Origin: Carallia brachiata | Lineage: Eukaryota; Streptophyta; Magnoliopsida; Malpighiales; Rhizophoraceae | Direction of reading: 5' to 3' | Length of the DNA: 64,000 bases | Assembly (NCBI GenBank): GCA_021464245.1 | Contig: JADCRB010000025.1 | Coordinates: forward strand, 4,963,903-5,027,902 | Part shown: piece after piece, positions 11,364 through 62,725 of the stretch | Layout of the letters: each line of letters opens with the position of its first letter | Numbering within the stretch: position 1 is the first letter of the stretch | Position numbers and translations under genes: made by a program | The notes under the pieces: generated by a model | Seen by the model: only the letters and a program-made list of their open reading frames with translations | Told to the model about the DNA's origin: nothing | Database searches by the model: none

Positions 11364-11535
11364 TGAAAAAATTAGGCTGCCAGAATCGGGTATCTGCCCG
11401 AATGTGTTTTGTGCAACAAGACAGTGATATTGTGCAACAAAAGAAATCTGTATTTTTCTGTTGCACAAAATAGCAGTCTTGTTGCACAAAAAAATATTTG
11501 GGCAGATGCTCGATTCTGGAGCTGTAATGGCACCC
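11364..11535. mobile_element. MULE-type MITE, family A, copy 1
   Basis: A 172-bp foldback element. The target duplication AATCATGTA is perfect (11355-11363 and 11536-11544). The ends are inverted around CCAGAATCGGG...CATCTGCCC, but the outermost 13 bp differ: one end reads TGAAAAAATTAGG and the other, reversed, GGGTGCCATTACA. The interior is a hairpin with two TGTGCAAC octamers on the left arm (11410, 11431) and two GTTGCACA on the right (11460, 11481), each pair exactly 21 bp apart. It sits 3' of the transposase exons and has no coding capacity. Confidence 0.88.
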
Positions 11536-12313
11536 AATCATGTAAGCAGGTGGTATTCAACCATGATTATAATTATAATATCGGCCTGACAAATGTCTAG
11601 TTCTAGTTGGATGGGTGTAAAGTAAAATAAGATTACATTATTCTTGTTTGGGAAATTTGACTCAATGCGTTGCTCTTATGTTTGTCTTGGACGGAGTATA
11701 GTGTTTGTGAGTGAAGAATTGCTGGGCTGAGATATGATGAAGATTCAAAACTGAATAGAAAATTAGCCAGATAGTAATTTTAAATTATTATGAAATCGTT
11801 GCAATGTATGGTATATAAAATTTTGATAGGAATGTAATTAATGCGATAGTTGGAATGTGTTGGCAGCAAAAGTAATAAATTTTTTTTTGCATGGGATTCC
11901 ATAAGTGTCATATTATTGATATGGAAACGAACTGGTAAACAATAGAGGTAACTATTTAGTTGAAATAAATTAAAGGAAACATATGTTCTCATTTATATGT
12001 TGTAATTTTTTAAGAAATTATATATTCAATTTTGAATTAAGCAATAAATAAATAGTAATAATAAAAATTAATGAAGGACACATAAAAAGGTGTTTTTCTT
12101 CGGTAATGGAGAGCTCATGCTTTCATCCTTCATACAGGATGTTTGATGCTTGCCAAGGGAACATTATCAGTTTAATTTATACGTTCAAATTTGAGTGAAG
12201 TGAACTGGGACATCTAGATGTGGTCAACGGTTCTCAGGCTGCGCGTACCGATTATCTGCTTTTTGAAACTCGTACAATAAATAGTAAAACATGATCCGGT
12301 GCCATTTTTTCAG

Positions 12314-12537
12314 GGGTGCCATTACACTTCCAGAATCGGGCATCTGCCCGATTATTTTTTTGTGCAACAAGACTATGATTTTGTGCAACAAGACCATTGG
12401 TTTGTGCAACCAAAAAAATGAAAAAATAAAGATTTTTCTTGTTGCACAAAATAGCAGTCTTGTTGCACAAAATGATAGATTTGTTGCACAAAAAAATATT
12501 CGGGCAGATGTCCGATTCTGGAACTCTAATTTTTTTA
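12314..12537. mobile_element. MULE-type MITE, family A, copy 2
   Basis: A 224-bp foldback element, inverted relative to copy 1. Near-perfect 9-bp target duplication: TTTTTTCAG (12305-12313) and TTTTTCCAG (12538-12546). It has the same asymmetric ends as copy 1. Each terminal repeat contains its own small hairpin; the left one is AATCGGGCATCTGCCCGATT, two perfect 9-bp arms around TC. The interior carries three TGTGCAAC octamers (12361, 12382, 12403) facing three GTTGCACA (12441, 12462, 12483), all at an exact 21-bp period. Confidence 0.88.
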
Positions 12538-13215
12538 TTTTTCCAGTGCCTGTGCAAAAGGCATTGAGGTGAAGTAGGAAGTTCAACAATATATGAAGAA
12601 AAAAAGAATGTTGAAAAAATGGCCATTGCTCAGGTGTTGAGAAAAGACTTTAAACAAGAATAGGATATCCACCTTTTTTAAATGGCCTTATGGCCCTCAT
12701 AGGTTATTACTTTGCTAGATAACTAACGATGGGCTGATTTCAGTAGTAGGCCTAAATTTACTCCAGCTTATATGTCTATGGACTTGTATGTGGCGATTGA
12801 GGATAAATAAGTTACAATTTGGGAAAGTATGATTAGTAGTGCATAGTCTGGTCATTGCCAGCTCGAGTTTGATGTTGTAGCCCAAAATCTTGAGCATAAA
12901 AGTGTGGTATATAAATAGGCCCAATATAGATACATATAGCCCATTAACACTGAGAGGGGAATAAACCCAAAAACAAAAAATTTTTTGACTTGGTTCGGTT
13001 GGGCAGTAGTGGCAATGAACATACCTAGGCTAAGTGGTCGTGCAGCAAGCTAGGGCCCACACTGACTCCCCCAAAAAGTCAGCAACATAAAGAAGAAAAA
13101 AAAAACATTTAACTGCTCCAATCAAGCCATGCAATTCATGTACTGATAACTATGAGGACACAATAGCATGACCGATTGTCTTAAAAAATGAAGCCTCTAC
13201 AACGAAGGTCAGAAA

Positions 13216-13700
13216 TTAGTCAGAATCTGAGGATTTAAGAATGATCGCCTCATTCTGTGGACCAGCATTTGTGGCATTTTCTCCCCCCCCATTGCCAACA
13301 CAGCAGTTGTTTGTCACTTTTTTAACACTATGTAGTGCCCTTGTATTACGTACAATTACTGTTTTCCCAACTTTGATCCCAGCCCTTTTCCTAGCACAGA
13401 CCCGGAGAACCTTGGCAATGCGAGGCAGGCGGTCCCTTATTTTATATAAGAAGCAACGCAGCCAAGGATAACCGAGTTTGTTGATTAGTTCTTCAAGGAA
13501 TTCTTCAATTTCGTTCCTAAGCATCCATGCCTCATCCATGACGATACGGAAAACTTGGTATGCAGTCTCCGTATACACGGAAGCAATTTCCTTTGGTATC
13601 TGAGAAGCAGAACCTAGAAACAACCATGACGACGCTATTACATGCAGTGAAGGATAAAAGTGCAAATGTAAAACTTTTAGTTGCCTACATTTTTTCTGCA
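13216..13700 (-). CDS. Possible exon of unknown MULE-borne gene
   Basis: An open minus-strand stretch whose 3' part has balanced, protein-like composition: a segment rich in Glu/Ile/Leu (EIEEFLEELINKLG), then basic residues (RKRAGIKVGK), then an acidic tail ending SSDSD and a stop at 13216. I do not recognise the family. It lies inside the large MULE, on the strand of the Ulp1 gene but 4.5 kb beyond its protease exons, so it may be a far downstream exon or captured host sequence. The upstream 60 residues of the open frame look non-coding. Splice sites are not determined. Confidence 0.3.
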
Positions 13701-13759
13701 ATAAAATAAGGCCAAGTGTTTGTATAGGATGCATGAGATGCATGTGTGATATGATCACT

Positions 13760-15540
13760 TCAGGGATTCCTCATTTGGGGCCACAGATTTGTAAACTTTT
13801 GAGTAGTTGTGTAAGTATGAGATGAGGTGTTGTTGCAAAGATGAGGGCATGTACTTGATATATGAACATCGATTAACATAAACTATTGTGTTAAAGAGAG
13901 TGCAAAAAAAGACCACACTTCAAATAGGCTCATACCATCATATGCAAGTCCCGCAGAGGAAATCATTGTGCTCACAATTGCAGTTGTATGTTGCCGTATG
14001 AGAGAATACCAGCTTACTAAGCCACAGCTTATTTGCAACTGGGGCTTTGGAATGTGGAATGGGCATTATATAATGTCCTTCTTATATTGGCAGAAGTATA
14101 CCCTTTCATTTATCGGACGCACGAGAAATGGGAGGGAAAATTTGGAGGGAAACGCTTGATTATGGTGTGCTTAGAGACCGAAGAGGGGAGTGGTGATGAT
14201 GATAAGTGAAGCAAACAAATACTTTGTTGACACATATGCGGGCTACATCTGCTAGATGATGGTGACTGAACAGTGACTACTTTGTGTAATGTGGATCCTA
14301 CTGCATTAAATGCGGATCAACTTGGTTTGGGAAAGGATCTGGGAAGTTGGTATTCGTGAATAAGTTTGCAGTACTTCAGGCAAATTATGTGAAGCCATGT
14401 CTGATAATGCGAAGCCAATATTTTCACCATCAGTCATATACCGTAGCTTATGTCCTTCAGCTTGGAAGTTCAGACCTAAATAACCATAAAATAACAAGTG
14501 CAATGAGGAAATGTGCTTTTAACTTTTAATTAACTTTAATCGAATTTAATTTAGTGGATGGAAATTGAAGGGAAATTTGACATTCATTAATGTTTTTAAC
14601 CAGGTTTGTTTGCGATTATGAAATTCCTAAATTTTTTTTTTTTTCACAATTGCACAACTTTGCGGCACTATTAAAAATCAAACAATTTTATTTATGCTTT
14701 TAATTGGGACATATATGCATGTAGGTAAAAAAAATGTTACATTAGTAGCATAATGAGGAAAAAAATTGGCCTACATTATTTCAGCGACTATAAGAGAGGG
14801 TAATTAGCTTAATTCTAATTGCATTTTATTATTACTTTTGGTACATGTAATTGATTTCTAATACCGACGTATAGAATTTGAATGGAGACGATATATACCA
14901 ATACTCATCAATACGTGTGAAAGCATTGGAAGAAAAATTTTAATTTTAAAATGGAGGTTTACATAGTCGGATTACATGTGATAATTAATGAATTTGCAGA
15001 AAATGAGGTTCAGTATGCAGCGGTTCGTTACTTGGAGGAATCTCATTTTTGCAAAACATATAAGTTACAATTAATATATGTTTATATTATCCTGGTTCAT
15101 TTGAGCTTCATTAAAATAAAATACTAAAATTAGTGGACATATAAATCCTTCGAAAGTGCACACAATGTGCAATTTAAGAAGTTGGGATTTTTTTTTTATT
15201 GAATTCAAGGACAGATCTAGTTACAGAAGTAGGGGTAAGTGGTAAGGGTATTCACGGTTCGGTTAATTGAATTTAATAACCAAACAAGTATAAATTATAA
15301 TCTAACTGTAAACATATATTTTTGATATATATATATTTTTAAAAAAAAAGTATAACTATCATTATATATAAAAATAAATAAATGATTATTTGCGATGTAA
15401 TAATATTTTATTAACATTTATTTATTTACTAATAGTTATTGTATTAGTAATATTTTTTCTTATTATTAAAAAAACTATATTTTATTAAAAATTTAAACAC
15501 CCCTACAAGTGGTCCCCCCATTTGATACCTATAGGATAAC
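13760..15540. other. MULE interior without recognisable gene
   Basis: Moderately AT-rich sequence between the two transposon genes. Several short open frames on both strands carry no motif I can name. AT content rises sharply after about 14.5 kb, with simple-sequence stretches at about 15.3-15.5 kb. Confidence 0.45.
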
Positions 15541-15564
15541 AAATGAGAAGTCGACACATTAATT

Positions 15565-15615
15565 TGTGCAATAATTTCATTTATATCTGCAACAAATGAC
15601 AAATGTACTGCAACA
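15565..15615. repeat. Solo 21-bp-period TGCAAC array
   Basis: Three octamers, TGTGCAAT (15565), TCTGCAAC (15586) and ACTGCAAC (15607), are spaced exactly 21 bp apart with no facing arm. They look like one arm of a foldback element of the kind found at 15.7 and 17.1 kb, decayed or truncated. Confidence 0.65.
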
Positions 15616-15702
15616 AATTTTAAAATTATTACTGATTCATTGGCAAATTGAAAGGGAAAATGAAAGAAAAATGAAACGGAAATATTTTTCTATTTAATTT
15701 TT

Positions 15703-15946
15703 GAGTAAAAGTAGGTGGACGAGAAAAGGGAGACGCGAAAGAGACGGGAAAATTTTTTTGTGCAACCAACTGGTTTATTTGTGCAACAAAATGTTGAATT
15801 ATTGCAATAAAATTTGAAAGTATTTTTCACCTAATTTGTTGTTGTAGAAATTCAGCGTCTCATATAAACAATAAAGCATCTGCTTGCACAAAAAAAAATT
15901 TCGGTCGGTTTTGCATCTTATTTTTGCTGTCCACGTAACAGTACTC
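15703..15946. mobile_element. Foldback MITE, family B, copy 1
   Basis: A 244-bp element whose ends both show GAGTA...GTGGAC when read inward. The probable target duplication is TTAATTTTT (15694-15702) and GTAATTTTT (15947-15955), eight of nine matching. The left arm has TGTGCAAC at 15759 and 15780 and ATTGCAAT at 15801, exactly 21 bp apart. The right arm is decayed and keeps only one CTTGCACA (15893). Ends differ from family A, but the internal array is the same. Confidence 0.72.
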
Positions 15947-16810
15947 GTAATTTTTTTTGTATTATTTTTTTTCAATACAAACACATACTTTGTATTTTTT
16001 GTCTCAACTACAATTATTTATTTTATTTCGCACTATGTAATACACCATAATTTGTATCAATAATAATATAATATACTTTTTTATTTATTTTCTTTTCTAT
16101 TTATTATCTATTTAATTTTTCACTATCCAATCACACCGTTAACGAGTGTGATAGTTAGCTTTCGGCATGGGCCTCAAACGTACAACCAAAGCCAAGTGTA
16201 TATACGCTTGTACCGTTGGTTTGGGGTTCTAACACTGACCCATACATGTTCTAGCGTTGTTTTACTAATATTTTCTTATTTTTTGTTTTGTTTATTTTCT
16301 GCAATAAACAATAGCTTCGAACAAAATATGTGCACATTTGGAAACCATAAGTCGGCAGTCCAGGTTATTGTGACACAATGGACAGAAAAAAGTGCACAGC
16401 TATCTATGACATTTAATATGACAACTGACTGAAATTATCTCCAGCATCTTACACAGATCGTCCTTTACAAGCAATTATAGTCAACTCCTCATTATTTTGG
16501 TCCCGTCAGTCATGGACAGTTCAGTACTTTGGGGTATGGGCATGGAGTTGCATAATGGTGCATGGACTCAAAAGTGCAATGGCCGCCCAGAAAATTGACA
16601 TTTCTATTTCAATACCCCTGATTGTATTGCTAAGGTATAGCATTTATATACGAGTTTTAATATTTTCAATGTTATGTGATTACGTAAAAATATTTGATTA
16701 TAGATTAATAAAATTAAAATATTAAAACTAGTATATATAATTATAATATTTATTTAATCCTTTATTTCTAATTATAAATAGAAATAATTTAATGAAACCA
16801 TTTTTTCAAT

Positions 16811-16928
16811 TTTTTTTTTGGGTAAACATTGTAATTGGGAAGGTGAAAAAAGAATGTTCATTCAACAGGTTCGAACCGCGGACTAATGAGGGGGGCAACA
16901 CACACTTGCCACTAGACTATACTGCACC
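16811..16928 (-). mobile_element. tRNA-derived SINE
   Basis: Read on the minus strand, a tRNA-like head carries an RNA polymerase III A box (ATAGTCTAGTGGCAAG, 16905-16920) and a perfect B box (GGTTCGAACC, 16868-16877) at normal spacing. A short unrelated body follows, ending in TTTACCC plus an A run (about 16810-16819). Total length is about 120 bp. The head lacks a full tRNA cloverleaf, so this is a SINE and not a tRNA gene. Flanking duplications are not clear. It is nested in the large MULE. Confidence 0.75.
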
Positions 16929-17089
16929 ATCTGTTGTAGTTTTTCATTGTTTTATACTAGTTTAAAAAAAGTCAAGGGGGGCAAAATTCATGAATTTTTA
17001 TGCAACCGTATAGATAAAAAATGATACGAAAAGTATCGCTGTTATGTCCGTTTGACATTTATCAGTTATTCTTAAAGAGAAAAACTAAA

Positions 17090-17306
17090 GAGGACAGGAT
17101 TAGATGGACAGGAAAAGACGCGAAAATATTTTTGTGCACACAATTCCTTTATTTGTGCAACGGAAGGTTCAATTATTGCAATTGAATTTAAAGCTTATTG
17201 TCATTTAAATTTTTGTTGCAAAAATTTATTTATTTGTTGCACAAATAAACTTATTGGTTGCACAAAGGCTTTTTTCCATCTCTTTTCCGTCCACCTAACC
17301 ATGCTC
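17090..17306. mobile_element. Foldback MITE, family B, copy 2
   Basis: About 217 bp. The inverted ends match GG(A/T)TTAG(A/G)TGGAC followed by GGAAAAG. The left arm has TGTGCACA (17133), TGTGCAAC (17154) and ATTGCAAT (17175); the right arm has GTTGCAAA (17215), GTTGCACA (17236) and GTTGCACA (17257). All are exactly 21 bp apart, three per arm. The left arm is closely similar to that of family B copy 1. The target duplication is weak (AAAACTAAA and CATACAAAA), so the outer limits may be a few bases off. Confidence 0.75.
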
Positions 17307-17639
17307 CATACAAAAATCCATTTGTTTTCAATTTTAACTGTATAGTTCCAAATTGATTCAAAGCACATGCAGAGGCAAATTTTATTTCTTTAAGTAAAAA
17401 ACGTAATATCACTTTTATAAGTGCGTGTAATTAATTATACTGATGTTACGATTAAAAGAAAAAAAAATTAACTGTAAAATTCGTTAAAATTTTTGACTTG
17501 GTTTATGTGTGCTAGTGCCTGGTATTCCATAATACAATGACATAATATAGAAATTAAGGATGTATATTGGGAGTACCGATTCAATACTATTTTTATGTTT
17601 CTGTCAATTATCCTACCAATGGTTATCACAGTAATTGTT

Positions 17640-17745
17640 ATTGGTTGCACATATATTACTCAGATGTTGCACATTTCAATCGGTATTGATTAATAACAGT
17701 TTTGCAAATGTGTTGCACACATTTGCCGTTCAGTTGCACATTGTC
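17640..17745. repeat. GTTGCACA cluster, family D
   Basis: GTTGCACA at 17644 and 17666 (22 bp apart) and at 17712 and 17733 (21 bp apart). The third lies in a palindrome with 9-bp arms, GCAAATGTG and CACATTTGC, around TTGCA. The first pair and the sequence between them resemble the array near 51.75 kb read in reverse. It is probably a decayed foldback element; its ends are not defined. Confidence 0.55.
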
Positions 17746-18142
17746 ATAACTCTCCCACATTAATGACCAGCTTAGTACAAGCGCGTCTATTTTCCAATTT
17801 CTTTTTCCAAAATGGATTTTCATTCATTCACCTCAGTACCGTCCTTAACAAATTGTCACCACCGGCCGAATAGAACATGGGTGAAGAAGAAGGTTTCCTA
17901 TCACAAACAACTTCCTGATATCCTATCTCACTTCAAACCAACCAATGCCCAGGTTTCTTCGCGGACTTCATTCTCTGGATCATCAATCAAACAGATGACA
18001 TATTCCTTCCGAAAACCGAATATGTGGGTCTACAACAATGTAAGACTACATTAGTTCTTCTGTTTAAACATCTACTTTTTTTTTCCACAAAAAATAATGC
18101 AATAATACCACAGAGATGGACAACGCTATCAATCTAAATTAC

Positions 18143-21100
18143 CTTTGGGTCAATGTGAGCAAGGGTTGTCCCTTCCCATGTTTCCATAAACTTCATTACA
18201 AATATCCCACAATCATAGCTGCATTGCAAACACAACAAACATTTTATTAAATTGCCAGCTACTGGTGATGTGAAAGATTTTTTTTACTTCATCATCCAAC
18301 TAAGTTAAAAGTCTAATGATTCCGAGTTACTTATTCTCTTGTTGCGGAACTGAAACAAGGTTGATCGGAAATAGATTAAAATCATATTCCTGCCTCCCAA
18401 CATGAGAAAATGCCTTCGACATTATTGCAACCTACATATCACATCAACCAAGTCAGTACAGTTGATTACCTCAGTATTGTTTTCGCAATATCAATATGAA
18501 CTTTTTACATCAGGTTCATGACTGATGCTTACAATATGAGGCAACAAAGTTGCGCGGTCAGCAACATGCGCGTCTGCTTGGGAATCCAGCACATCAATTC
18601 GGCGGTCTCGAATATTTGTAACAAACAGCATCCAATGTTCCTTATATACAATTGGAATGAAGAGCTGCAACAAACAGTAACACATTACAAACAAAAGTTA
18701 GTGCAAATGCTAAATTGCAATAATTTAGCATTCGCGATTACTAGGTTTAAACCTCACCATGTCACAACCAAATATTGAATAACCAACATTGTGCTCGCCA
18801 AGATATTGCATGTGCTTCATAGGGTCCCAAGGCCTGCCAATGACATTGTCGGTAACATCACCCCCAGCAGCTGCAACTATAGAAACCTGTACAAAATATA
18901 TGGCACTTTCAAATAAAAAATTTGCAACCTCACTCCATTTCTAAACATAACCTCACACCAAAAACATGTTTTCCTCATAGCATTAACTGCTGGTGCCTAA
19001 TTCAAATAAACCAATCACCGTAAAAAAAGGACTAAAGTAATGCTTCCAAACACGACCCGCCTTCTTTTGTCTATAGTTTAGAAGTGCAGCATGGGCATCC
19101 ACAACCTGCAAAGAATCACACCACATTGCCAACAGAGGTTGTTATGCTATTTACAGATTTACGACCAATAGTCAAAGTTAGGGATAAACATATTTCAACA
19201 AAGAATATACACACTAAATTATTTCTTTCATGTATAAAACCCCTTAGTTTACCACATTAGAAATACGTTGTCTCGCTGCCAAACATCGTAAATCCCTTAG
19301 GTACAAATTGATCACCTTAGCTATTACCACCACCACTGGACTGTCCAATAATGATTAAGGAAATGTTAGTCACCCAAAAATGTTATTCAATAGCATTCTA
19401 GAAACTATTTTGCAACGCATGTCTTTAAATTTAAATGCCAGATTTTTTACTTGTTCTCCACATTGGATCCTCTCCCTGGCCCTCTAGTGGCCCATGTGTA
19501 CAGCTTCAGGTATTTTTGGCTCAACCGTCGATTTGGAACTAAGGTTGGAACGTCAAATGCCTGTGAAGTAGCATCAAGGGTAGCCTTTATAGCGCGTCTC
19601 TTCCTTTTTCGCACTGCTGGCCTTTCGCTGGTATGAGGACTCTCAAATGTCAACTGCCCACCATCTTGCTTCTTAACTGTCCATGTTCGCGTCGTACGAC
19701 CTACACACAAAGAAAATCAGCTTCTAACTTCACAGCTATACTAACTATGCTGCAACTTATGGTTAATCATAATTATTCAATTTTAACTTATTATATACAT
19801 TCCCCTTCTTTATCTGCGATCATCCCACTTCCAAGTAATCTTTCATTTTCTCAAAGGGAGCTAATTCCTTCAACTTTTGGTTAGTCACAATTATCCTGCT
19901 TCTTTATCACATTCAGCCTCCTTACTTTCGGTCTCCCTACAACCTAACAACATTGTAGTTTAACCTACTATTATCTCATATAAACTAAGTTCATAATATA
20001 GTTCAACTTCGAGTTTAGTCTACCACTTTTAAATGGCACATCACAATGAAATGTTATTTATAACACATCTTGCCTGATTTGATCATCTCTTCTACCATAT
20101 CTTCATCCTCATTCTCCATGTTCTTTCCACTATGTTCTCGATCATCCGGTCGACCTTCGGTTTCCAACTTGTTTTCTTTTCATTCATTCTGCTTTCCCCC
20201 TTATTCTCATATGACATTTCACATGATTTCTCTTCACTTTTATTCTGCTGCTCACTTTCACCTGTCATCACAGCATAGTTTTATTGTCGCTTACATGTCG
20301 ACATTTTAATTATTTGTACAACATAACTTTTGCCTTACAATCCATCTTAACAATCAACAAGAAAACACCACGACCGTACTTGCCTGACACTTCCACAACT
20401 GCAATCAATGACTCTTCCCTTTCTATCTCATTCAAGGGTGCACCAAACACAGGAATTCCATTTTCGTTTGTCGTTTCGCCTCGCTTCGTTGTTGTCCCTT
20501 CACTCGCACATTTCCTCTCTTCTGTATATTGCTCAACCAAAATAGACGACTCCCTATCTGCATAATTTGTTATCATCACTTGGTCAGTGCATCATAAGCA
20601 TTCTGTTTTCCTACATCCATTCATTCACACACATAAATACAAGCCCTTCCTACAACTACATACCTGTTCCTTTGCTGGCAATTTGGCCCTTCCCCTTTCT
20701 CCTCGCTCTGATTCTTTTATTTCACAGTTGCTCTCCTTTCTTTCAGCACTCCTCCACTCCTCTGCAGGGTCTTCTTCACATTTTTGACGTCCCTCAAACC
20801 TACGCCCTAGTTTCTGCCTCTTACTCTTCTTTGTTGAAACAAGTGTTTCACTTATATGGCTTCGCAATTCTGCTGTTAATGCTGAAATATGCTTCTGCAC
20901 TATTCTCTGTGTTAGTTTCTTCCAATTCAATACTACACCTTCCACTACTGCAGCCAACACCACCATCGCTTGGTACATAATTCTTAATCTGGCTTATATG
21001 GTGTCCAATAGCCTGCAATTCATTTGTACATTCAGCAACTTTAAATAAAACTCATTTAAAACTAACATGCTTCACCTGTACCTGTTCTGGATTATAGTTT

Positions 21101-22730
21101 GCATAATCATGCTCCATTGCAATACGACGCCTAACCCTTACTTTATCCCAAAACATCAATGGATGTACATCACTCGGCCTCTTCTCAAACTTTATGAATG
21201 GGCATCTCTCGAAATAGAATATCTGTATACACAAATTACAAAATTTCTTTACTAATAAGGTGAACATTTAACAGATTCTTTATAAATTATATACATACTC
21301 TTCACATCACTTACCATCAGGAACAACAAGCACCCCCCTATGCTGCGCTTCCCGCCTTCACAAATGCGCTTCCTTTCCCCTAGCGAGAAAGCTTGAATCT
21401 CCTGGCATAACCACTGCAGCACAAAGTCACCCCATTGAATTTCCTTACATCTTCTACATTACCAACCACACTATACATTTGCGGGGAAGGTGTTTGCGAA
21501 GATGTGGGACATAATACACATCCTAAAGCCAAAAGCAAAATGCTTGCTTCGTGACTTTGTCTTCCATCCCCTCACTCAACAACACATCCTTAAGCGCCCT
21601 AAAATTCAGCCTTCGTGTCCGTTTCTCTTTCCTGGAGATTTATCTTCTGCACTCACATTCTCCCCTCCTTTGCACACTTTGTCCTTCTCAATCTTCTTCA
21701 ATTGTTCTGCTAGCCCTTTAGCCACTTCTTTTCCTACCTTCTGATCATAAACAACCACCGGATTTGGACCATTTGGTAACCCCATTAATTCTGCTACATC
21801 TTCTCCACTGACACCTTGTCGCTGCCCGCGAATTACAAGCTCACAGGTAAAAGGATCAAGTGCCCCAACAATTTCATCATAAACCTCTTTGGCATATTGC
21901 CACATCTAACTTCGCTAAATGCCTCAAATCCCATTTCACTAATTATATTTCTAACCTGTGTATTCTGCCCCATTTTCCTAACTAACCTCATTATTTGTTG
22001 TGGGCAACACCGAATAGTACACAACCTGCATTAACACAAGTTTTCATCATTTTGTTGTCCAACTCTTACTTTATCTTTTCCTTTCCACTACTTTATCCAC
22101 AGTTCATATCAAGAACAGTTCATACTCACTTGGACTTCACAGTACTTCTTTCCCGTTCTCCTTCATTTTGCTCTCCACTTTCCATTGCTTCTGCTTCTCT
22201 CCGATATCTCTCCCTCCCAGACTCATCCAACTCATTCCATGCATCAGCAACTTCCCGGCGACTTTTATCCTGTCCATGAAACAAGCTACCAAATTATCAT
22301 ACATTTCTCTAAACAGAAGCCAAAAACCACAACAAAAAGCATTATTTTGTCCATGTTCTTCCTGACATTCACTCACCGTGCTCATCTTCATTTCCGTTCT
22401 GTACCTCCTCCTCTATTTGCCACATACCATTTCCTGCATATTGACATAGCATGTTATTACTCAATTATTCATTGTTCTTTTTTTTCTTCTTTTTTTTTTT
22501 TCTACACATTAACATATACAAATGGACATTACACTTACTCGAAAACTTTAAAACCATCATCCATCTTTCTCGCTTCCCTGGATCCTCGTTTTCGCCCTTT
22601 CCCCCTGTCTTCCGACCACCTTTAATACCCTTTCCCTTATGTCTTCATCACAGCTACCTGACCCCCCTTCACTCCAACAGTCCTCGCTAGATGACTCTCC
22701 ATCATATTCTGAATCACTCTCCTTCACCAT
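18143..22730 (-). CDS. MULE-borne Ulp1-like (C48) cysteine protease gene, multi-exon
   Basis: Four consecutive exons join in frame with GT-AG introns: 18886-18758, 18664-18533, 18431-18331 and 18218-18143. Together they give a Ulp1 catalytic core: IFIPI-like LFIPIVYKEHW (catalytic His), RIDVLDSQ (Asp), VPQQEN (oxyanion Gln) and YDCGIFVMKFMETW (nucleophile Cys). An exon at 19105-19019 lies just upstream, and N-terminal exons include 21222-21082 (IFYFERCPFIKF), about 21413-21315 and parts of 21.6-22.0 kb, matching the conserved N-terminal region of plant Ulp1-type transposon proteins. A plausible start is the ATG at 22730 in an acidic Ser-rich N-terminus. The full exon chain between 19.4 and 22.7 kb and the 3' end beyond 18143 are not resolved. 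Ulp1 proteases remove SUMO; the role in MULEs is unknown. All four active-site residues remain, which suggests recent constraint. Confidence 0.72.
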
Positions 22731-23270
22731 TATCACAAATCACTTGCCTTCGGTCCCCACACACTGACTGCAAATGCACTTTTGACTTCCGATGCTTCAC
22801 ATTAACTCTCGCTCTTCCCAAATAATCAATCACTTTTTCTTCTTCCCTACAAATATCACTACTTTCGTTTCCCTTCTTGCTCTTACTCTACCCCTGCTTC
22901 TCCCCCCTCTCTATACTTGTAGTCTCTCCTTTTCCCTTAACCCAATCAAATTAATTGGATAATAATTTTCAATTTTTTAACCCACCACATATCCCGACTG
23001 CTGGCCTTCTGCTACCCGATTTTGAATTTCAATTTTCAATAGTTAATCCCTAATCTTTCCCCTTTCAATTTGCTCTGTACGGTTTTTACTCTTTTTATAT
23101 TTGTGGGGCCCACATTCCACCTGGCATGTGGAACCCGTTGGGCATTATTGTCTGCCCATATAGACTTTCCCCTTTTGAAACTGCAGAAAAATTTCCAATT
23201 TTGGTACCCTGTAATTTGATACTGACATCATTCAAGTCTCAACTTTCAGACTCTCAACCGAAAGACAAAG

Positions 23271-35343: not shown

Positions 35344-35827
35344 GGCTAAAATACTAAATTGGTTTCTAACGTTTGGGTTAAAATCTAATTATAAACACAA
35401 TATTTTTTTTTGATAAAATTAGTTCTCAACATTTTAGCTAAAGTTCAATTATGGACACAACGTTATTTTTTTGTAAAATCAGTCCCAACATTTTCATTGT
35501 AAAATAATTCAGTACTTTTCTATTATCTGACCGTTTAATTTACCAAGAAGTATATTATCTATTCGTCGTGTCATAACATTGTATTTGTAATATAACATTG
35601 CATCCTACAAAGAGGCGTTTTAACAAATAATATACGTCTTGGTAAGCTAAACAGTCAAATAAAAAAAAATACTGAATTATTTTACAGTAAAAACGTTAAA
35701 GACCGATTTTACCAAAAAAAATTTGTGATTTACCCGAAATATTAATAACTGATTTTACTAAAAATAAACGTTATATGCATAATTAAACGTAAACTCAAAT
35801 GTTAACCACCAATGTAAAATTTTAGCA
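35344..35827. mobile_element. MULE-type MITE with long inverted arms
   Basis: A 484-bp foldback element with a perfect 9-bp target duplication AACATAAAA (35335-35343 and 35828-35836). The ends read GGCTAAAATACTAAATTGG and, reversed, TGCTAAAATTTTACATTGG. The arms stay complementary over most of the length (shared TAAAATAATTCAGTA and ACGTATATTAT blocks). The end sequence, of the TAAATTGGT..CTAACGTTT type, is common in dicot genomes. It lies in the last intron of the FAHD1-like locus. No coding capacity. Confidence 0.93.
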
Positions 35828-37954: not shown

Positions 37955-40900
37955 TCCTCTGCCTTGTTTTTACAGGGAAATAGCAGCTGCAGTTTTTCTC
38001 CCCCGTTGACCGCTTACGGACAAAAATCTGAAAATTGTGGCTTGTATTTATTTTTGAGTACATATTATTATTATTATTTTTTAATAATAAAAAAAATTTA
38101 TTGTGAGTATATCTGTTATCGGATCTATAAATTAAAATTGAAGTACTACTGTGTGCATCTTATTTAACCGAATCTTTACGTGTACCTTATTCAACACAAC
38201 TCATAAGAATGATCCTCATTTAAATACTGTTAGACCTGAGATTGATCAAAATGATTATTGAATTTAAAACTAACCCGTGTGCTTGCACAGCTAAATTAAC
38301 GATTAAAAAAGGTTACCTTCAAATACAAATACAGAACCCATTCGAAGTAGCTTTTTTCTTTTTTTTTTTTCGGAGATCATAAATATTTTAAGTCTTTTTA
38401 TTTTTGGTAATAGAATATAATATATATATATATTGGTCTATGGTAGTATAATGTTTTTTTTTTGGTCATGAATAATGGTAGTAGAATATTTTAAGTCTTA
38501 TTCGGTACGAATTACAAGCCTAGAAATTTACGTGAAGCCCAATCAGCCCATTATTTTGGGAGTTTGAATCGTTTGATGTGGGCCTTTAACACTGCAATAA
38601 TGGCCCACTTGGGATAATTATCTCAAGTGTCCTTTATTCAGGCCCAAAGTTGGTCTTTGCTTTTTCTATGCGAACTTCACTTTTCACGATTGGCACACCC
38701 AAGGTATCTATTTGTGTCATGAAAATGGGCCTCAATAGTTAGCTGCGATATTTTGGGTTAAATTTCTTTTAAGCACTAGTCGTAAATCTTAAACAAATAC
38801 AACTCGTAAATCTTAAACAAATACAACTCCTCCATAATCCATTGGTATGGAACAAAGTTAAAGTGGTAAATATGTTAGTGAATCCAAAACGCCCTGTGAA
38901 AATGTTAGCTGTGTTTTTTTTTTTTCCTTTTGGATTAAATTTTCCCAGAAAAGATTAGTTTCGAATCTGGCCAAGTTTGGTCAGCTTTGGAATAATTAGC
39001 AAAAGTCCCTTCTATTTGTCTGCGAGCATGAGATCGGCAGCAAATTTGTATTCCATGGAATGCTGACATTTCTGGTTCACATGCTTTCTGGGCCCTCAAA
39101 TCCAACTCATTCACGTGATAAGCATACAATAACCACATCCTTTCATCAATTAAGCTATGCTTACCCACAAGCCTTTCCTGAACTTGTTCTCAAATGCTTC
39201 CCCATATTTATGGTTTGCCCTTGTCGTTTGTGGTCATGCATTTTCCTTCTTAATTAATGATGAACTTGTTTGGTCCGAGTCGGGCCATATTATAGGTAGA
39301 AAGTCTTACCATCTAGAATTAATTCGTTAATTAGGCCTAAAGTCATGATAATCTGTTTGTTTTAAAAGATGAAACAACATGTGATCTTGTTGGTAATTAT
39401 GTAGGAATTTTAGCAAAATGTTCAAAAAAAAAAAAAAAAGAAATAGAGAAATCAATTTACTTGCCGAAATCATTAATGGTTGCCCAACTAGGAGCTGTCA
39501 CTTATGTACTTTGTTGAATTTGGTATTGGAAAAGGTCAATTATTAAGCTGCTATTTATATATATATCATAGAGTTCAAATACACGAACAAGTGAAAAATA
39601 GATAGCGACAATTATAATGCAACTGATTGAATTGTGTAATCAAATAATTATTTTTTATAATAAAAAATTGATAAAATTATCAACGTTGTATTATTTTTTT
39701 ATTATAAATATTAATTATTTATTTATACAATTCAATCGATTGATTGATTGTTCTGTAACTTTCTCTCATATTTTTTATGCCGTCCGTATATGTTTTTTAT
39801 ATATCATATAGGAAATGACTTCATTTAAATGTCAAACCAGAACAGAAAGAGCTCGTGCTGAGTTGTATATCGAAGACATTTCAACTAGAAAACCTTTTTG
39901 TACGCGAAGGGTTCGGGTTCAATTTTAATTGCATGAATATTCATCAAATTTATTGAAATTATACATATCTGAAGCTATTAATGATATGCATGGTAAATAA
40001 TTGATTGTATCTATAGTTGAGTTGAGATCATGATATAAAGCAAACTAAATTATAAGTTGTTATATTTGCATTACATATTGATCGGGCTGGGCAAACCAAC
40101 CAATCACTTGAAAGTCCGTCACATTGTAGGGCTAAATAATTATTATTATAAGGAAAATAGTTATGCGTGGTCATTAAGCCTCATAATTGTATTAGATCGA
40201 TGTCGCATTCTTGAGTGTGAGTTTGTGCACTAGATGAATATCGTTATTAGAGTGAAACTATTGACTGTAAAAGGTTGTGTTATATATTGTCTTTTCAGTT
40301 GTGTTCTCTATTAATGAATAAAATCTATTGAGTTTGAAAAATGTATAAAAAAGAAATCTAAAATTCCTATTTACAAGAAAAAAAAAGGGAATACGGGAAC
40401 TTAAAACTATTATTGCATGATCTTAACTTAGCCTAATATAAAATAACTTTAGCCATCGACACTTACTCAAGTATTGAAGATTTTGAATATTAATTTTAAT
40501 TAATAATTAAAAAAAAAAACATGCTGGCCACACGATCTGCTTATATGCATGGTGTTATGCCTGACGGTTACTACTTACTATGGATTAACACAATTTCCTT
40601 GCGAGTCATTCATTTATCAATGACTTAAAATTTTGTTAGAATAATGTGTTTTATGGATCCGACATATAAACCATGTACTCTTTTTTTTTAGTTATTACAT
40701 TAGTAGATTTTAAATACAGAGTTAGCCGCTCACATACATAGATTCCCCAACTTGTTGCGGAAAAGTACTTTTGCAGATTGTTGTCAATATGTGCGACAAG
40801 AACCGTTATAGCGAGCACGAAGAGACACGTACACACACATATATACCTGCACTGAAGTAGTGGGTGTCCAATGCTCAAAGATCATCCTCAAGCGACACAG

Positions 40901-42927: not shown

Positions 42928-43776
42928 TGTTACAGAACTAAATTTCTCTTTTAAATTTTTATCTTATAATAGTATTAAGTCATATTTACTCTCAACTAAC
43001 TCGCATACACAAGATTTTGGCACAATAAAACTTTGTAATCAAGCACACAACTTACGCACATATAAGAGATATAAGTAAGAGTATACCAGAATCTTTTCCA
43101 ACCTTTATTATTTTATCTCAAAGTATACAGAGGAACAAAATCACTGAATTCTCGATAGTGTTTCATTCTTTCTCTTTGAGTAATTTTTCTCTCACTGAAT
43201 ACAAATGACAAACCTATAAAGTCTATTTATAATTGATACTCTCAACTATTTAGGGTTTAGAGATAAATGTTATCTTCCCATGATCTCTATCATAGCTAAT
43301 AATCCTCATCTTTCCACGATTTTATCCACAACTCAATCCTGATAACTCTTATCTGCTACGATCATTCATCATTTGATCTCGATAAGTCTTATCTGCCATG
43401 ATCTTTAGCCATGCATGATCTAATAAGCATTACCTCAATACTTGACTAATAGGATAGCGCCACATACGTACGTCCCCACCTTTCACACGTTGTAAGAGAC
43501 TCAGTGTCACGCAATGTCATGCAAACTTGACCAAGATTTAGTCTTGTATTTGGTTCTCTTGGCTCGAGCCCAAGACCTATCTGATAGAGCCCATGAACCT
43601 GTAAGCCAATCCGTGTCTTGGTCTACCTTGGGACCCACATGTGGGTTTGTGCATATGCTGAAACGTCTCAACTTCCACCTTACCTTAATGAGTGCTCAGC
43701 CACTCTAAAATCTCATGTTAGAAATTGGTGTAAGGTACCACCAACTCGAGCATGCTAAGTGTTTAAGGGACTAATA
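42928..43776 (-). repeat. 3' LTR of the gypsy element
   Basis: Aligned with 48245-49090 along its whole length: CAGA(A/G)CTAAATTTCTC, CTCGCATACACAAGATTTTG and CTCGATAGTGTTTCA occur in both, in the same order. Terminal bases are approximate. Confidence 0.85.
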
Positions 43777-46700: not shown

Positions 46701-48234
46701 ACTTCTAACTAATACTAGAAGAGGGAGTGAATTTTCCAAACACAGAGTTTGGATGATCCTTATGTATGAACATAAGACCACCCAAATGAGGCAATAGAGT
46801 AACTTTTACCCTCACAAAAAAATCGATTTCCAGTATGATATCAAAATCATCTAATGGAACCATAGAAAAATTAAACTTACCTGGCCAACTATCAGTAGTT
46901 ACGTCTATTCCTAGTGTCGTGCCAAACACCTCTCGGACTACCAAGTTGACTGCCTTCATTTGAATCTCAATTTTGGTGACTTTCAAACCCAGTGACTCCA
47001 CTATCCTCTCAGCAACAAAGTTGTGGATAGTACTCATGTCAGCCATCGCCATCAACTCTTTATTATTGAGCTTGATCTTCACATGCATCAAGCCAAATTG
47101 TGGGGCACGTCCAGCTTGTACAACACTCACCAACTACAGAAGATTGACACGAGAGGGGCTAACATCATCTGCGATGCTACTTCTGCCACTCTCCTTAGTA
47201 ACTATAATACTTAACTTCTCCCTCTTGGGACACTTCTTAACCCTGTGTTGTCCATTACAAGCAAAACAACCAGAGTTAGACTTGCATTTACTTTATTCCT
47301 AATAGACAACTTTACCTTTATCCTTACTGCTACTGTTGTTATTATCTTTATTACCTTCCTTCTTTTTTTTGCCCTTGTCTTTGGGCTGCTTTCTAGCATT
47401 AGAATTGGAGGACTTGTTGACCTAAAAATCAACTAAACCATCAACTGTAGCTATTGCAGAGGTAGATACTTCACCCATTATCTTCTAAGTTTGAGTTGAG
47501 CCCATTGTTGAAGATTGAAAAGGAAGTTGAAAAGTTTGTCCTTATCCGACATATTCTGGATGTCAAGCATCAAGGAACAGAATTCCTTTACATAATCACA
47601 AACTGCGTTGTTCTTCTTCAACTTCTTCAGGAACTCTCTTGCAACCTATGATGTGTTGCAGGATAAGAACTGATCCTTCAACTCCTTATTCAGGCTCTCT
47701 CACGTCTTGATCTTAGGCCTACTTGCACTTACATCGTCATCCAACTGAGTCTGCCACCACAACTTAGAGTCCTTGGCTAGATACATACTAGTCAGATTGG
47801 CTTTAATGGTCGTCTAAGCACTCGAATAGAGTTCAAATATTACAACATGTCCTATAAAAAATTCTCGATCTTCTTGGCATCCCTCGCTCCCTTAAAGGTT
47901 TTAGACTCCGACTCCCTTGAAGGTTTTAGATTCCGATACCTTTATCTTGGTCGAGTCATCCATATGACCTCCGCTTGATTGAAAGCTTACAACCTTCTTG
48001 AGGATGGCTATTTCTGCTACCATCTCATCAAGTCGAGAAGCTGTGTTTGAAGAGGCCACCATCTCATGTTGCTGCTGTAGATCGATTATGTAATGCTCAT
48101 GGAACTCCAATATTTAGAACACGATGAAATTTGGATCCTCCGGAAGTTCACTAAATACCTCAAAAAGTTTGGCTACACGCTCATGAACTGCATCAAAACT
48201 CGAATCACCTGCCATTGGTCGAACCTTTATACTA

Positions 48235-48244: not shown

Positions 48245-49090
48245 TATTACAGAGCTAAATTTCTCACTCAAATTTTTACTTTATGATGGCACTAAGTTAC
48301 ATTTAGTCTCAGTCAACTCGCATACACAAGATTTTGGCACAATGGAATTTTTTAATCAAGTACACAACTCACATATTCATAAAAGATACAAGAGTATACA
48401 TGAACCTTTCTCAACCTTTATTGCTTTATCTCAAAATATATAAAGGAACAAAGCCACTGAACTCTCGATAGTGTTTCACTCTTTCTTTTTGATTGATTTC
48501 TCTCACACTAAGTACAAATGACAACCCATAGGGTCTATTTATAATTGACACCTCTCAACTATCTAGGAGTTAGAGATAAATGTTATCTCCCTATAATCTC
48601 TATCATGGTTGATAATTCTTATCTTCTCACGATCTTATCCACGACTCAATCCTAATAAGCCTTATCTCTCACGATCATCCATCATTTGATCTTGATAAGC
48701 TTTATCTACCCACAATCCTTAGTGATGTACGATTTTATGAGTATTATCCCGATACTTGGCCAACAGGATAGAGTCAAACCTGCACGTCCCCACGTTCCAC
48801 ACGTCACAAGAAAATCGGTGCCACGAAGTGCCATGCAGACTTGTTTAAAACTTAATCTTGTGTTTGGGCCTCTTGGTCCAAGTTCATGACCCATCTGATG
48901 GAGCACACGAACCTATAGCCCAGTCCATGTTTTGGTCTATCTTGAGACCCACATGTAGACTCGTGCTTATATTGAAACCTCTTAACTTTCACCTTACCTA
49001 AATTAGTATCCAGCCACTCTAAAGTCTTATACTAAGAAATGATATAAGGTGCCACCAACTCTAGTATATTTAGTGTTCAAGGGACTAATA
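48245..49090 (-). repeat. 5' LTR of the gypsy element
   Basis: Partner of the 42.9-kb LTR. On the minus strand transcription would start here. Its internal border touches the primer-binding site. The outer end near GGGACTAATAG is approximate, and I could not confirm a 5-bp target duplication. Confidence 0.85.
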
Positions 49091-51730: not shown

Positions 51731-51785
51731 GATGTGCAAACATGGAAAGTATAATGTGCAACCAAGAATTATACAATATGCAATC
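51731..51785. repeat. 22-bp-period TGTGCAA array, family D
   Basis: TGTGCAAA (51733), TGTGCAAC (51755) and TATGCAAT (51777) lie exactly 22 bp apart. Read in reverse, the array resembles the GTTGCACA pair at 17.64-17.67 kb. No facing arm is seen. It lies 450 bp upstream of the MATE start codon, so it could affect that promoter. Confidence 0.6.
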
Positions 51786-52088: not shown

Positions 52089-52096
52089 TATAAAGG
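52089..52096 (+). promoter_or_regulatory. Candidate TATA box of the MATE gene
   Basis: TTATAAAG in the context ACCTTATAAAGGTCC, about 140 bases before the start codon, which would give a leader of about 110 bases. Confidence 0.45.
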
Positions 52097-52232
52097 TCCA
52101 CCATCGAACCAATTTGCTTGCCAAGTTCTCTCCCACAAAAGGAGATCCCACTACTATCATTATTAAAACCCTACTCTCTGCTCTAATTACTATATCAAAA
52201 CAGAAGGCAACAAGAAAAGAAATAATAGCAAA

Positions 52233-53869
52233 ATGTTGAAGGCAAAAGATTCCCACAAGCACCCGACAATGTCAGAGGTATAATGTCTTGAGCAAATTTA
52301 TTAAAAAAATAAAAGAAAGAAAAAGATCATCTCCGGCCCCTGTAAATGTATAATTTCTTATCTAACATTAATGATTCTATTAACCTTTTTTTTTTCTACT
52401 AGGTTGTGGAGGAACTAAAGAAGATGGCAGACATAGGCTTCCCCATAGCAGCAATGGGCTTGGTTGGCTACCTCAAAAATTTGATTCTGGTTGTCTGCAT
52501 GGGAAAGCAGGGGAGCCTGGAGCTCGCCGCCGGAGCCTTAGCTATCAGTTTCACAAACATCACAGGCTACTCCGTCCTATCAGGACTAGCCATGGGGATG
52601 GAGCCTCTTTGTAGCCAAGCCTTCGGCTCAAGGAACCACTCAGTGGCAACCCTCACTCTACAAAGAACAATCGTCATGTTACTACTTGCATCACTACCAA
52701 TTGGCTTGGTTTGGTTCAACCTTAAGCGCCTCATGCTTATTCTCCATCAAGATTTTGATATTGCCCGAGTTGCAAGTTTGTATTGCCGATTCGCCATCCC
52801 AGACCTCATTGCCAATAGCCTCCTACATCCAATACGTATATATTTGCGTAGTAAAGGGACTACATGGCCATTAATGTGGTGCACAATGGCCTCTACTATT
52901 CTTCACCTTCCTATCACAATATTCTTGGCCTTCACTATTTCACTTGGGGTGCCCGGAATTGCAATTTCCAATTTTGTCACCAATTTTAACACCCTCTTTT
53001 TCCTTCTTCTTTACACATACTTTAGTACTCATCGTGTGCCCAATGACTACGAGGACGACGCGTGCGCCTTGACCACACCACTATCACCGTCGGCGGCGGA
53101 GGTGGCGACAATGTCACAGTCTTTGGTAAAATGGGGGATTTTAGTTGGACTCGCTATACCAAGCTGCGTTGCCGTTTGCTTAGAGTGGTGGTGGTATGAG
53201 TTCATGATAATCCTAGCGGGTTATTTACCAAATCCTCGTGTTGCTCTAGCCACATCGGCAATTGTCATTCAAACCACTTCCCTCATGTACACATTGCCAG
53301 CAGCACTCAGCGCTTCCGCGTCAACTCGGGTAGGCAACGAGCTGGGGGCCGGCAGGCCGGCGCAGGCACGTTTGGCATCGGCGATTGCCATAGGACTCGC
53401 CCTCTTAACCGCATCTTTTGGCTTGTTGTGGACTACCGTAGGGAGAGAATCCTGGGGGAGGATTTTTACAGAGGATAGTGAAGTTCTGGAGCTAACAATG
53501 ATTGTGCTGCCCATAATTGGGCTATGTGAGCTTGCAAATTGTCCACAAACCACCAGTTGTGGGATTCTGAGAGGAAGTGCAAGGCCCGGAATTGGGGCAG
53601 GGGTCAATTTTTACTCATTTTACTTGATGGGTGCGCCAGTGGCCATAGTCTTGGCCTTTTTTTGGCGACTAGGGTTTGTGGGTCTGTGCTATGGTCTTCT
53701 AATTGCTCAAATTACATGTGCGGTCTCGATCCTGACCGTGGTATACAAGACTGACTGGGAAAAAGAGTCGTTAAAGGCCAAAGACTTGGTGGGGGCACAT
53801 GCAGACCAAACAGACGTTCTATGCGAAGAAGCTGCACAATTTCTTAAACAAGTTGATCTTGAAAAGTGA
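52233..53869 (+). CDS. MATE-family (DTX) efflux transporter
   Basis: Two exons: 52233-52277 (MLKAKDSHKHPTMSE) and 52403-53869, joined in frame across a 125-bp GT-AG intron to begin VVEELKKMADIGFPIAAMG. Reading from inside exon 2 would miss the true N-terminus. The protein is about 504 residues with twelve expected membrane spans, normal for plant MATE proteins, which export organic cations, metabolites or hormones using proton or sodium gradients. Signature segments: GMEPLCSQAFGSRN in the first half, ASTRVGNELGAGRP in the second, and CGILRGSARPGIGAGVNFYSFYLMGAP. The C-terminal KTDWEKES is typical of the DTX48-56 type clade, but I assign no specific member or substrate. AATAAA at 53921 may serve polyadenylation. 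No damage seen. Confidence 0.93.
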
Positions 53870-54407: not shown

Positions 54408-54448
<41 letters not shown>

Positions 54449-56440: not shown

Positions 56441-56449
56441 AATTGAATC

Positions 56450-56740
56450 AAAACTTGTATACCACTTTCAGCCCCCCAAACAAGAAACCTATGCCTAACC
56501 AACAAACAGGAAACAGTAATAACCATGCCATAAGGCTCTCTGTTCTCCCTATTTCCATATTAGCCAAAGATCCAGCAAAACAATTGGACTCTCTAGATTG
56601 GAATGAAAACTGTACAGCTCCACAGCACAATCTATCAATCTGATTAAGCAAAGACAGATGCATCCGAGGTCTCCTTTATACATTCTTCAGCCACTCTACA
56701 ACACACCTGGCATCAGATTCAATGTTCAAAGAAAAAACAA
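56450..56740 (-). pseudogene. LINE RNase H fragment
   Basis: On the minus strand, ESDARCVVEWLKN is followed after a stop by LLNQIDRLC, then FSFQSRESNCFAGSLANM. This order fits the end of a plant LINE RNase H domain (ESD..VV..L, then SRESN..A.SLA). It carries a stop and has no flanking LINE parts, so it is a relic. It is too short and diverged to link to the LINE at 33.4 kb. Confidence 0.6.
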
Positions 56741-57744: not shown

Positions 57745-57789
57745 ACAACTTCACTAAATTTTTTTTTGGGTACATACAACTTCACTAAA
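57745..57789 (-). mobile_element. Tail-only retroposon insertion with 14-bp target duplication
   Basis: ACAACTTCACTAAA occurs perfectly at 57745-57758 and 57776-57789. The 17 bp between them, read on the minus strand, are ATGTACCC followed by nine A: only the last few bases and the poly(A) tail of a SINE or LINE. The 3' end resembles that of the SINE at 16.8 kb (ATGTTTACCC plus A run). Confidence 0.8.
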
Positions 57790-60730: not shown

Positions 60731-60734
60731 TCGC

Positions 60735-60985
60735 TAAATTAATCATTAATCTCTACTGTATCCTCAGATAGGCAAACTGTATTCAACTTGTGTTTTAGAA
60801 CTTACTATTGCACTAAACACCAACTGTAAGGCTTTGATTGGACCTGTAGATTGAACAGTGATTATAAAACTCTCTTCCTTAGCATGGATCTCCGCAAGTC
60901 CTGGCTTACCCATTGGTTCTACATTTTTTATGGCTTCATTGTCCTAGGTGTAAAGCCCAGGTTCAACCACAATGTAAAGAGAAAT
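60735..60985 (-). pseudogene. RNA polymerase II subunit 3 (NRPB3-like) C-terminal fragment
   Basis: The minus strand reads VVEPGLYT, a stop, then DNEAIKNVEPMGKPGLAEI, then KEESFIITVQSTGPIKALQLV. After a frame change it reads CLSEDTVEIND. This order matches the C-terminal region of plant RPB3 (family pattern: YDDE, MGKPGL, FIFTVESTG, QLVLNAI, RLSEDTVE). An in-frame stop and a frameshift show it is not functional. Upstream RPB3 sequence is not visible on either side, so it is a partial copy: a truncated retrocopy or a captured last exon. Confidence 0.75.
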
Positions 60986-61705
60986 AACCTTTTATAAACA
61001 GACTAGCTAAAATAATCCTTTTGAGTTTCAACACAACTGAGCATGGTATAATTTGCAAATATATATAGTGTGTGACAATCTCCTTGATTGTTAAAACAGA
61101 GCCTTTCAAAATTAATGTTAATAATTTTTTATGGTAATAATTGTCAAAGAAAGTTACAAAATTAATGCTAATAAATTTGTATTTAATAATTTATGGTAAG
61201 AAGAAATTCGGGATGGTTAGAGACGGTTACAAATCATTCATGGTCGGTTACAATTTAAGGATGAAGATTTAAGGGAAAAAATTGGACTATTGGAGGAAGA
61301 AATTCAGTTATGCTTTCATTTGGTCTAGGCCTCTTTTTTTTTTTGATAAGAATTGAAGGGAAAAATTTAAAGGAAAAATTGTAAAAATATCAAGTAGAAA
61401 TTAGAATTAAGAAGAAACTTTTTCTAAATTTCTATTTTATACTAATTAAATAGATAGATATTTATAATAAATGAAGTTTATTTTAAATAAAAATATGATA
61501 AATAAATTTGTGTTATATAAATTATAAGTAAATTAATCTCACACAAAATAGTAAATGAAAATAAGAAATAATTTTTGTTACAATAGGATGACTGTTTCAT
61601 GAGAGAGCACTCTCTACTAATATAATATATTTGTTTTCCTATAACTCTACAGTGAAGAGCTTTTGAAATTGCAATATGAGAAAATGTTGGTGTTCACACT
61701 TTAGC
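60986..61705. other. AT-rich intergenic region
   Basis: No gene. The stretch near 61475-61545 (TTTATTTTAAATAAAAATATG and ATTATAAGTAAATT) resembles the dispersed AT-rich repeat also found at 2.1, 26.9 and 51.9 kb. Confidence 0.45.
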
Positions 61706-62725
61706 GTCATACGTTTCAGTTATATGCAACAACATTCATAATTTCTACAACAACAATTATGTTTTGTGTAACAAAAATTTACAATTTATTTTTTTTGTTG
61801 CACAAAATAATACATGTACTTACAAAAAAATTTATATATTATTATAAAATGATGAAATGTATAATTGAAATGTACTGTAACCCATATGGTTATCTAATGG
61901 AATTCTTGCAATATTTACCATATATAAGATGATTTCCTGACGTGTCTCCACATAGATTTCATAAATCCCTAAAATTGCTGTTCGATTTAGACATGAAACC
62001 GTTGGTGTGACCCAGCGCACATTTGAAGATATTTCAACTAGGGTGCGAAATTCCATTATAACTGGGGAAGATTTGTTTTTTTATTTTTTGGGGTACATAT
62101 AATAAGTGGGAAGATGCGACCTCAAATCTTGGAATATTGCCTTTTTCAGAATCGGGAATATCATCATACCTCTAATCAGGCAAACAAGAGAGGGACGAAA
62201 GAAATCATTCATGTAATTTTACAGTTATATGTAATAATATTTATAATTTTTATAATAATTATTATATTTTATATAATAAAAATTTATAATTATTTTTTTT
62301 TGTACAAAATAATATATGTACTTATAAAAAATCTGTATATTATTAAAAAATAACGAAATGTATGATTAAAATATATGATAACTCATATGGTCATTTAATG
62401 GAATTCTTGCAATATTTACCATATTTAAGATGATTTCCTGACGTGTCTCCACATAGATTTCATAAATCCCTAAAGTTGCTGTTCGATTTAGACATGAAAC
62501 CGTTGGTGTGACCCAGCGCACGTTTGAAGATATTTCAACTAGGGTGCGAAATTCCATAATTACTGGGGAAGATTTGTTTTTTTTTTTTTTGGGTACATAT
62601 AATAAGTGGGGAAGATGCGACCTCAAATCTTGGAATATTGCCTTTTTCAGAATCGGGAATATCATCATACCTCTAATCAGGCAAACAAGAGAGGGACGAA
62701 AGAAATCATTCGTATAATTTTTCCG
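61706..62725. repeat. 0.5-kb tandem duplication containing a foldback array
   Basis: Copy 1 is about 61706-62221 and copy 2 about 62222-62725, offset by 501-505 bp. The right 320 bp of each (from GGAATTCTTGCAATATTTACC) are almost identical. The left 180 bp hold a 21-bp-period array in copy 1: TATGCAAC (61723), TCTACAAC (61744), TGTGTAAC (61765), with a facing GTTGCACA at 61797. In copy 2 the same stretch is strongly decayed, C to T and G to A. Open frames inside the copies have no recognised motif. Confidence 0.88.
62556..62616 (-). mobile_element. Second tail-only retroposon insertion
   Basis: ATAATTACTGGGGAAGAT (62556-62573) and ATAATAAGTGGGGAAGAT (62599-62616) flank a 25-bp insert that reads ATGTACCC plus an A run on the minus strand, as at 57.7 kb. 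The same insertion is present in the other copy of the duplication (about 62054-62115), so it is older than the duplication. Confidence 0.72.

Follow-up and report, generated by a model that had tools for sequence, protein, structure and literature searches.

What a short motif repeated at a fixed interval does inside transposable elements is the question raised by a 64-kb stretch of the Carallia brachiata genome (hereinafter the window; within contig C85), where the octamer TGTGCAAC recurs at steps of 21 bp in several small foldback elements and inside a large Mutator-like element (MULE). The window contains 22 exact octamers, compared with 1.6 expected from shuffled sequences, and the exact same-strand pairs up to 60 bp apart include 9 at 21 bp, 1 at 22 bp, 2 at 42 bp and 1 at 46 bp. 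The initial annotation, in which octamers were placed at 21-bp intervals, is borne out with respect to the coordinates, with several of the sites being degenerate: one mismatch is present at 15565, 15586, 17215, 51733, 61723 and 61765, two mismatches at 15607, 17133, 51777 and 61744, and three at 15801 and 17175 (ATTGCAAT).

The spacing was then counted across the entire genome (337.5 Mb) as octamer pairs at set spacer lengths, with a reversed control. The pattern TGTGCAAC-N13-TGTGCAAC is found in 1186 places (618+568; control 0), whereas all spacers from N0 to N12 combined yield 40 (26 of these with N12; control 1) and those from N14 to N33 yield 62 (25 with N14; control 11), that is, steps of 20, 21 and 22 bp are represented by 26, 1186 and 25 pairs, respectively. 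Spacer N34, which corresponds to two units on, yields 317 pairs (control 0), and octamers arranged hairpin-wise (TGTGCAAC-N20-50-GTTGCACA) occur at 330 sites (control 1). The excess of N13, which had been named in advance as the test of the spacing, is thus strongly positive; the window shuffles and the genome controls rule out a chance origin, and the 21-bp octamer arrays are real.

On balance, we favor the interpretation that this array is a tandem protein-docking site which, judging by the sequence comparisons below, would be carried by diverged miniature inverted-repeat transposable elements (MITEs) of the Mutator type and by their presumed helper, a FAR1/Jittery-like MULE. The unit TTTGTGCAACNARA, repeated at 21 bp, would then serve as a docking array for a DNA-binding protein, the molecules of which could be lined up side by side on one face of the helix. 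Given that 21 bp is two helical turns, a protein can sit repeatedly on the same face, and the kept pitch fits the earlier suggestion of a protein that reads one face of the DNA.

To characterize the carriers, 20 array loci were hand-picked for variety from the first places of the N13 listing, and more were fetched later. Among the 33 array clusters examined for target duplications, 12 have matching ends along with a clear 9-bp duplication, and one more, B1, was bounded in a separate analysis; no acceptable duplication was found in the other 20, partly owing to guessed bounds. The 14 MITEs tabulated (the 12, B1 and E) have 9-bp duplications of the MULE type, 10 of them perfect and 4 with 8 of 9 positions matching. 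The bounded arrays are foldback elements of 172-245 bp that are short and noncoding, possess inverted ends and are present in many copies, as is typical of MITEs. Each has one end resembling GGRAAAA..TT..GTGGMC and the other resembling GRGTNCCATTACGTGGMC, with variation, and these two kinds of 18-bp end are common to families A, B and at least five others (seven family labels are used). Given these common ends and the 9-bp duplications, the array carriers look like diverged relatives; their description as unrelated families in the initial annotation is not borne out, unrelated carriers being ruled out by the end kinds. In families A, E and H, 45-47 bp separate the MITE end from the first octamer (which in E and H is degenerate); the distance is 55-57 bp (43 bp in one arm) for B, F, G and J. 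Further units come after it at 21-bp steps, usually making three per arm.

In the window, MITE A1 (11364-11535, plus strand) has two octamers per arm and the perfect duplication AATCATGTA, and MITE A2 (12314-12537, minus strand) has three per arm, the opposite order of ends and the duplication TTTTTTCAG/TTTTTCCAG (8/9). MITE B1 (15703-15946, plus strand) is flanked by TTAATTTTT/GTAATTTTT (8/9), whereas the flanks of B2 (17090-17306, plus strand), a decayed B-type MITE with inverted arms, match at only 6 of 9 positions. MITE E (61678-61905, plus strand) combines a degenerate array with both end kinds and the perfect duplication TTGCAATAT. For B0 (15565-15614, plus strand), a degenerate array with 1, 1 and 2 mismatches at 21-bp steps, ends and a duplication were sought and none were found. 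Most of MITE E is included in a tandem duplication of ~507 bp (61714-62220 and 62219-62721, 90.7% identical). Elsewhere in the genome, two array loci of contig C3 (L017 and L018) are 5.67-kb sequences, 99.7% identical and ~131 kb apart, that each carry an array, and L012, L013, L014, L019 and L021 are multi-kilobase repeats, 72-95% identical, with several arrays and without long frames.

The earlier claim that the spacing is kept while the intervening 13 bp vary holds for the pitch, which is kept genome-wide over many spacers, but requires correction for the spacers, the variation of which is uneven. Over the 79 units of the 14 MITEs, 29 of which have an inexact octamer, the spacer has A at position 2 in 76, A at position 4 in 64 and T at position 13 in 63. 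Between families, identity is 85% for octamers and 44% for spacers, compared with 33% for shuffled spacers; at positions 5-11, the identical fraction is 0.315, within the shuffled range of 0.263-0.328 (one member each of 17 spacer clusters). Given that the spacers are nearly saturated and the pitch is nevertheless held, the pitch and the octamer look selected, and selection appears likely from these comparisons: the divergence of spacers, combined with the scarcity of 20- and 22-bp steps, is otherwise hard to explain and points to a constraint on length. An improbable alternative is that the array is a by-product of descent from an ancestral MITE with a 21-bp tandem repeat, which the families still show although nothing binds it now. 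The end kinds and design common to all 14 MITEs, as well as the similarity of many copies, are compatible with such an origin, but the near saturation of the middle spacer positions next to a kept octamer, along with the rarity of 20- or 22-bp steps, argues against it.

Two further arrays in the window, C and D, carry the octamer but lack MITE ends, which also speaks against mere descent. Array C (17644-17740, minus strand) consists of four exact octamers in one orientation with steps of 22, 46 and 21 bp; MITE ends and a duplication were sought and not found, and its interpretation as a decayed MITE was accordingly rejected. It has 8 matches in the genome, at 96-100% identity, all within 10 kb 3' of a transposase match (coordinates compared by eye). 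Array D (51733-51784, plus strand), with 22-bp steps, lies outside the MULE, and here too ends and a duplication were sought without result. It is located ~620 bp upstream of an open frame for a MATE transporter (52403-53869) that is close to DETOXIFICATION 55, with ~75% identity to the rosid DETOXIFICATION 55.

Folding bears on another proposal of the initial annotation, namely that the hairpin arms could give rise to 21/22-nt small RNAs, with dicing setting the pitch. MITE A2 as RNA would form a long hairpin (z -17.4 relative to shuffles), but array C folds no better than shuffles (z -0.23), and conservation between families is higher for the octamer than for the spacers. Dicing is a measurement of length, for which a repeated octamer is not required. 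Small-RNA phasing is therefore disfavoured as the weakest of the readings, and we regard it as very improbable.

Every array located at 11.4-17.7 kb in the window lies within a single large element, a full-length FAR1-type MULE of 15,676 bp (7496-23171) with ends GAGCATCATTAGATGGGC and GGGAAAGTCTATATGGGC and flanks CTTTTCAAA/CTTTTGAAA (8/9); the placing of its ends was guided by those of a related element on contig C9. A copy on contig C139 is 99.32% identical over 15,740 aligned bp (window 7496-23174), starts at 7496, ends within 3 bases of 23171 and is flanked on both sides by ATTCTATTT, a perfect 9-bp duplication. Thus, a PF10551 domain is located between ends with a duplication, as in other MULEs, at 8 of 9 positions in the window and 9 of 9 on C139, and the comparison of the two copies shows that the 15.7-kb element is mobile. 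The transposase near 8.6 kb, the relevance of which had been suspected in the initial annotation, belongs to this array-containing element. It is an open frame (8575-10833, plus strand) with matches to PF10551 (MULE, 5.5e-34) and PF03101 (FAR1, 4.1e-15) and has at least 120 homologues, many of which, among the matches listed, are named FAR1-related; the FAR1/Jittery clade is a candidate placement. In its own genome, there are at least 64 matches (60 of 661 candidates scored), and those of 96-99% on C139, C93 and C32 (partial on C32) indicate that the large element is multicopy. Just upstream of the transposase, two 105-bp tandem copies, 80% identical, occupy 8294-8509.

Two more genes of this element are on the minus strand. 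ORF2 (open reading frame 2; 13219-13770) is a conserved small frame, with 50% identity over 133 aa at locus L026 and 61% over 89 aa at L041; a homologue search retained 0 of 41 candidates at E<=1e-3. A Ulp1-like gene lies in pieces between 18137 and 22030, with PF02902 matches at 18494-18697 (1.5e-5) and, more weakly, at 18137-18283 (0.011). Five pieces match the C9 locus, which is collinear with the window over the transposase, ORF2 and the Ulp1-like gene; by its sequence, the latter is apparently broken. Searches for RNA families (at gathering score) and for tRNAs found none.

Since A1, A2 and B1 each have a duplication of their own, they are nested insertions in the large element; for the same reason, and given that the element ends at 7496 and 23171, A1 and A2 were rejected as ends of a transposase-bearing element. 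When one mismatch per octamer is allowed, the interior of the window element (7.1 kb) has 11 pairs at a 21-bp step, and the interiors of three diverged copies, on contigs C9 (9.8 kb), C19 (7.0 kb) and C58 (7.0 kb), have 18, 7 and 6, respectively. No such pair occurs in the 48.3 kb of the window that lie outside the element or in 21.2 kb next to the element on C9. The C9 element was located via an array, whereas the transposase was the basis for choosing C19 and C58 (two of six requested); these two contain 3 exact pairs in 14.0 kb, where 0.05 would be expected at the mean density of the genome. At 3 of the 20 array loci, the distance from the array to a related transposase is no more than ~2 kb. 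Of the eight array groups tested in the C9 element, one has a perfect duplication fitting its ends and the other seven have no acceptable one. A MITE nested in the C9 element, itself without an acceptable duplication, has an end that aligns to the end of this element with a score of 22 (no more than 10 in 1000 shuffles). From this alignment, which suggests rather than proves the relationship, we take the large element to be the likely helper of the array MITEs.

Several observations weigh against docking arrays shared by MITEs and a helper. A copy at 45% identity, on contig C80, has 0 arrays in 5.4 kb; only two large elements have been read to their ends, and the duplication of the one on C9 is poor (flanks 6/9 by eye; no pair within one mismatch by script). 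The MITE families are of common ancestry, copies within a family are not independent, and loci were picked via an exact pair, so that the conservation of the octamer is partly built in. Furthermore, the nested MITEs could reflect a general tolerance of insertions in the large element. Coding MULEs of maize and rice serve as targets for other elements more frequently than the other way round (PMC3903597).

The position of the arrays relative to the ends is critical for a further alternative, under which the octamers are ordinary subterminal sites of the type suggested for repeats of other elements, bound directly by the FAR1-type transposase in transposition and without any other function. The location of the octamers 45-57 bp from the MITE ends in both arms would fit this model, and in Aedes, the inverted repeats of Muta1 and Muta5 contain tandem repeats in a subterminal position (PMC5225508). 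However, no exact octamer is found near the ends of either large element read, that is, those of the window and C9, of which the former moved recently; in both, the exact octamers are far from the ends, and array C is interior as well. Compared with Muta1, whose autonomous as well as nonautonomous members have such repeats within their inverted repeats, the MITEs analyzed here fit and the large elements do not. We consider ordinary subterminal sites possible but unlikely.

A few other repeats are present in the window. Direct repeats of ~849 bp (42930-43776 and 48247-49090, 78.6% identical), with a weak aspartyl-protease frame between them (46708-47133, below Pfam's cut-off), are perhaps the remnant of a long terminal repeat retrotransposon, and long foldbacks without the octamer are located at 35345-35826 and 39625-39737.

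Returning to the docking interpretation, the protein would most likely be encoded by the large element, with the FAR1 domain of the transposase, ORF2 or the Ulp1-like product as candidates. Given that the octamers are far from the ends of both large elements and that the window element has a 99.3% copy elsewhere, docking would not be obligatory end recognition but a separate, accessory step. Its likeliest job would be to help array-bearing copies, via recruitment of the transposase or upkeep of the unmethylated state, which VANC proteins provide for VANDALs, and tethering by the bound protein would explain the piling up of MITEs within the helper. Direct transposase binding and VANC-like anti-silencing can be viewed as special forms, or close rivals, of docking.

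The general kind of element is known. MuTAnT and AutoMuTAnT of Medicago truncatula similarly combine foldback nonautonomous MULEs of 200-300 bp, 9-bp duplications and a larger Jittery-like partner, but target TA microsatellites, have a 4.9-kb partner with one ORF and, in the available part of the report, come with no mention of a spaced octamer array (PMC4486113). Muta1 of Aedes aegypti is likewise a foldback MULE with short tandem repeats in its inverted repeats and many nonautonomous copies, but its autonomous element carries, at its own ends, nine 12-bp repeats separated by 3-4 bp (PMC5225508), in contrast to the 21-bp pitch and the large-element ends devoid of exact octamers found here. 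In MULEs with multiple long terminal inverted repeats, terminal sequence is tandemly repeated as well, but as whole long repeats rather than as a spaced octamer (PMC3310237). Grapevine MULEs share FAR1-related, Jittery-like transposases and Ulp1-like regions in either orientation, but the words 'subterminal' and 'tandem' have 0 occurrences in the main text searched (PMC2528002). Accordingly, the statement that no plant element of this design has been described was too strong for the general kind, whereas for this octamer array itself no paper was found in literature searches, which leave out most subscription papers; what looks new is that the elements share this array and that it is concentrated in the presumed helper.

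A functional parallel to docking would be the VANDAL elements of Arabidopsis, MULEs with dense, tandem, noncoding short motifs in the same orientation (PMC5735166, PMC10398659), which are bound by an element-encoded protein (PMC5735166). The motifs differ, being YAGTATTAY and AGTTGTCC/AGTTGTAC (PMC5735166, PMC10398659), although 6 of 8 positions agree by eye between AGTTGTAC and the reverse octamer in context, a weak lead only. The 18 frames of the large element's minus-strand genes contain no match to DUF1985 or DUF287, and a VANC/DUF1985 system was rejected on this ground. A bolder, rather doubtful proposal is that this FAR1-type MULE lineage evolved a docking-array system of its own, independent of VANDAL/VANC, whereby an element protein would bind the arrays, protect or activate copies in trans and tether incoming MITEs, so that the helper gathers the arrays of its dependants.

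Of the sequence-specific motif arrays that plant transposons use, those of VANDALs are best known. A spaced motif that is common to diverged MITE families and concentrated in their presumed helper would provide a concrete site together with a few candidate proteins, and the arrays may serve as a natural copy-number series for studying the activation of MITEs, their targeting and their shielding from silencing.

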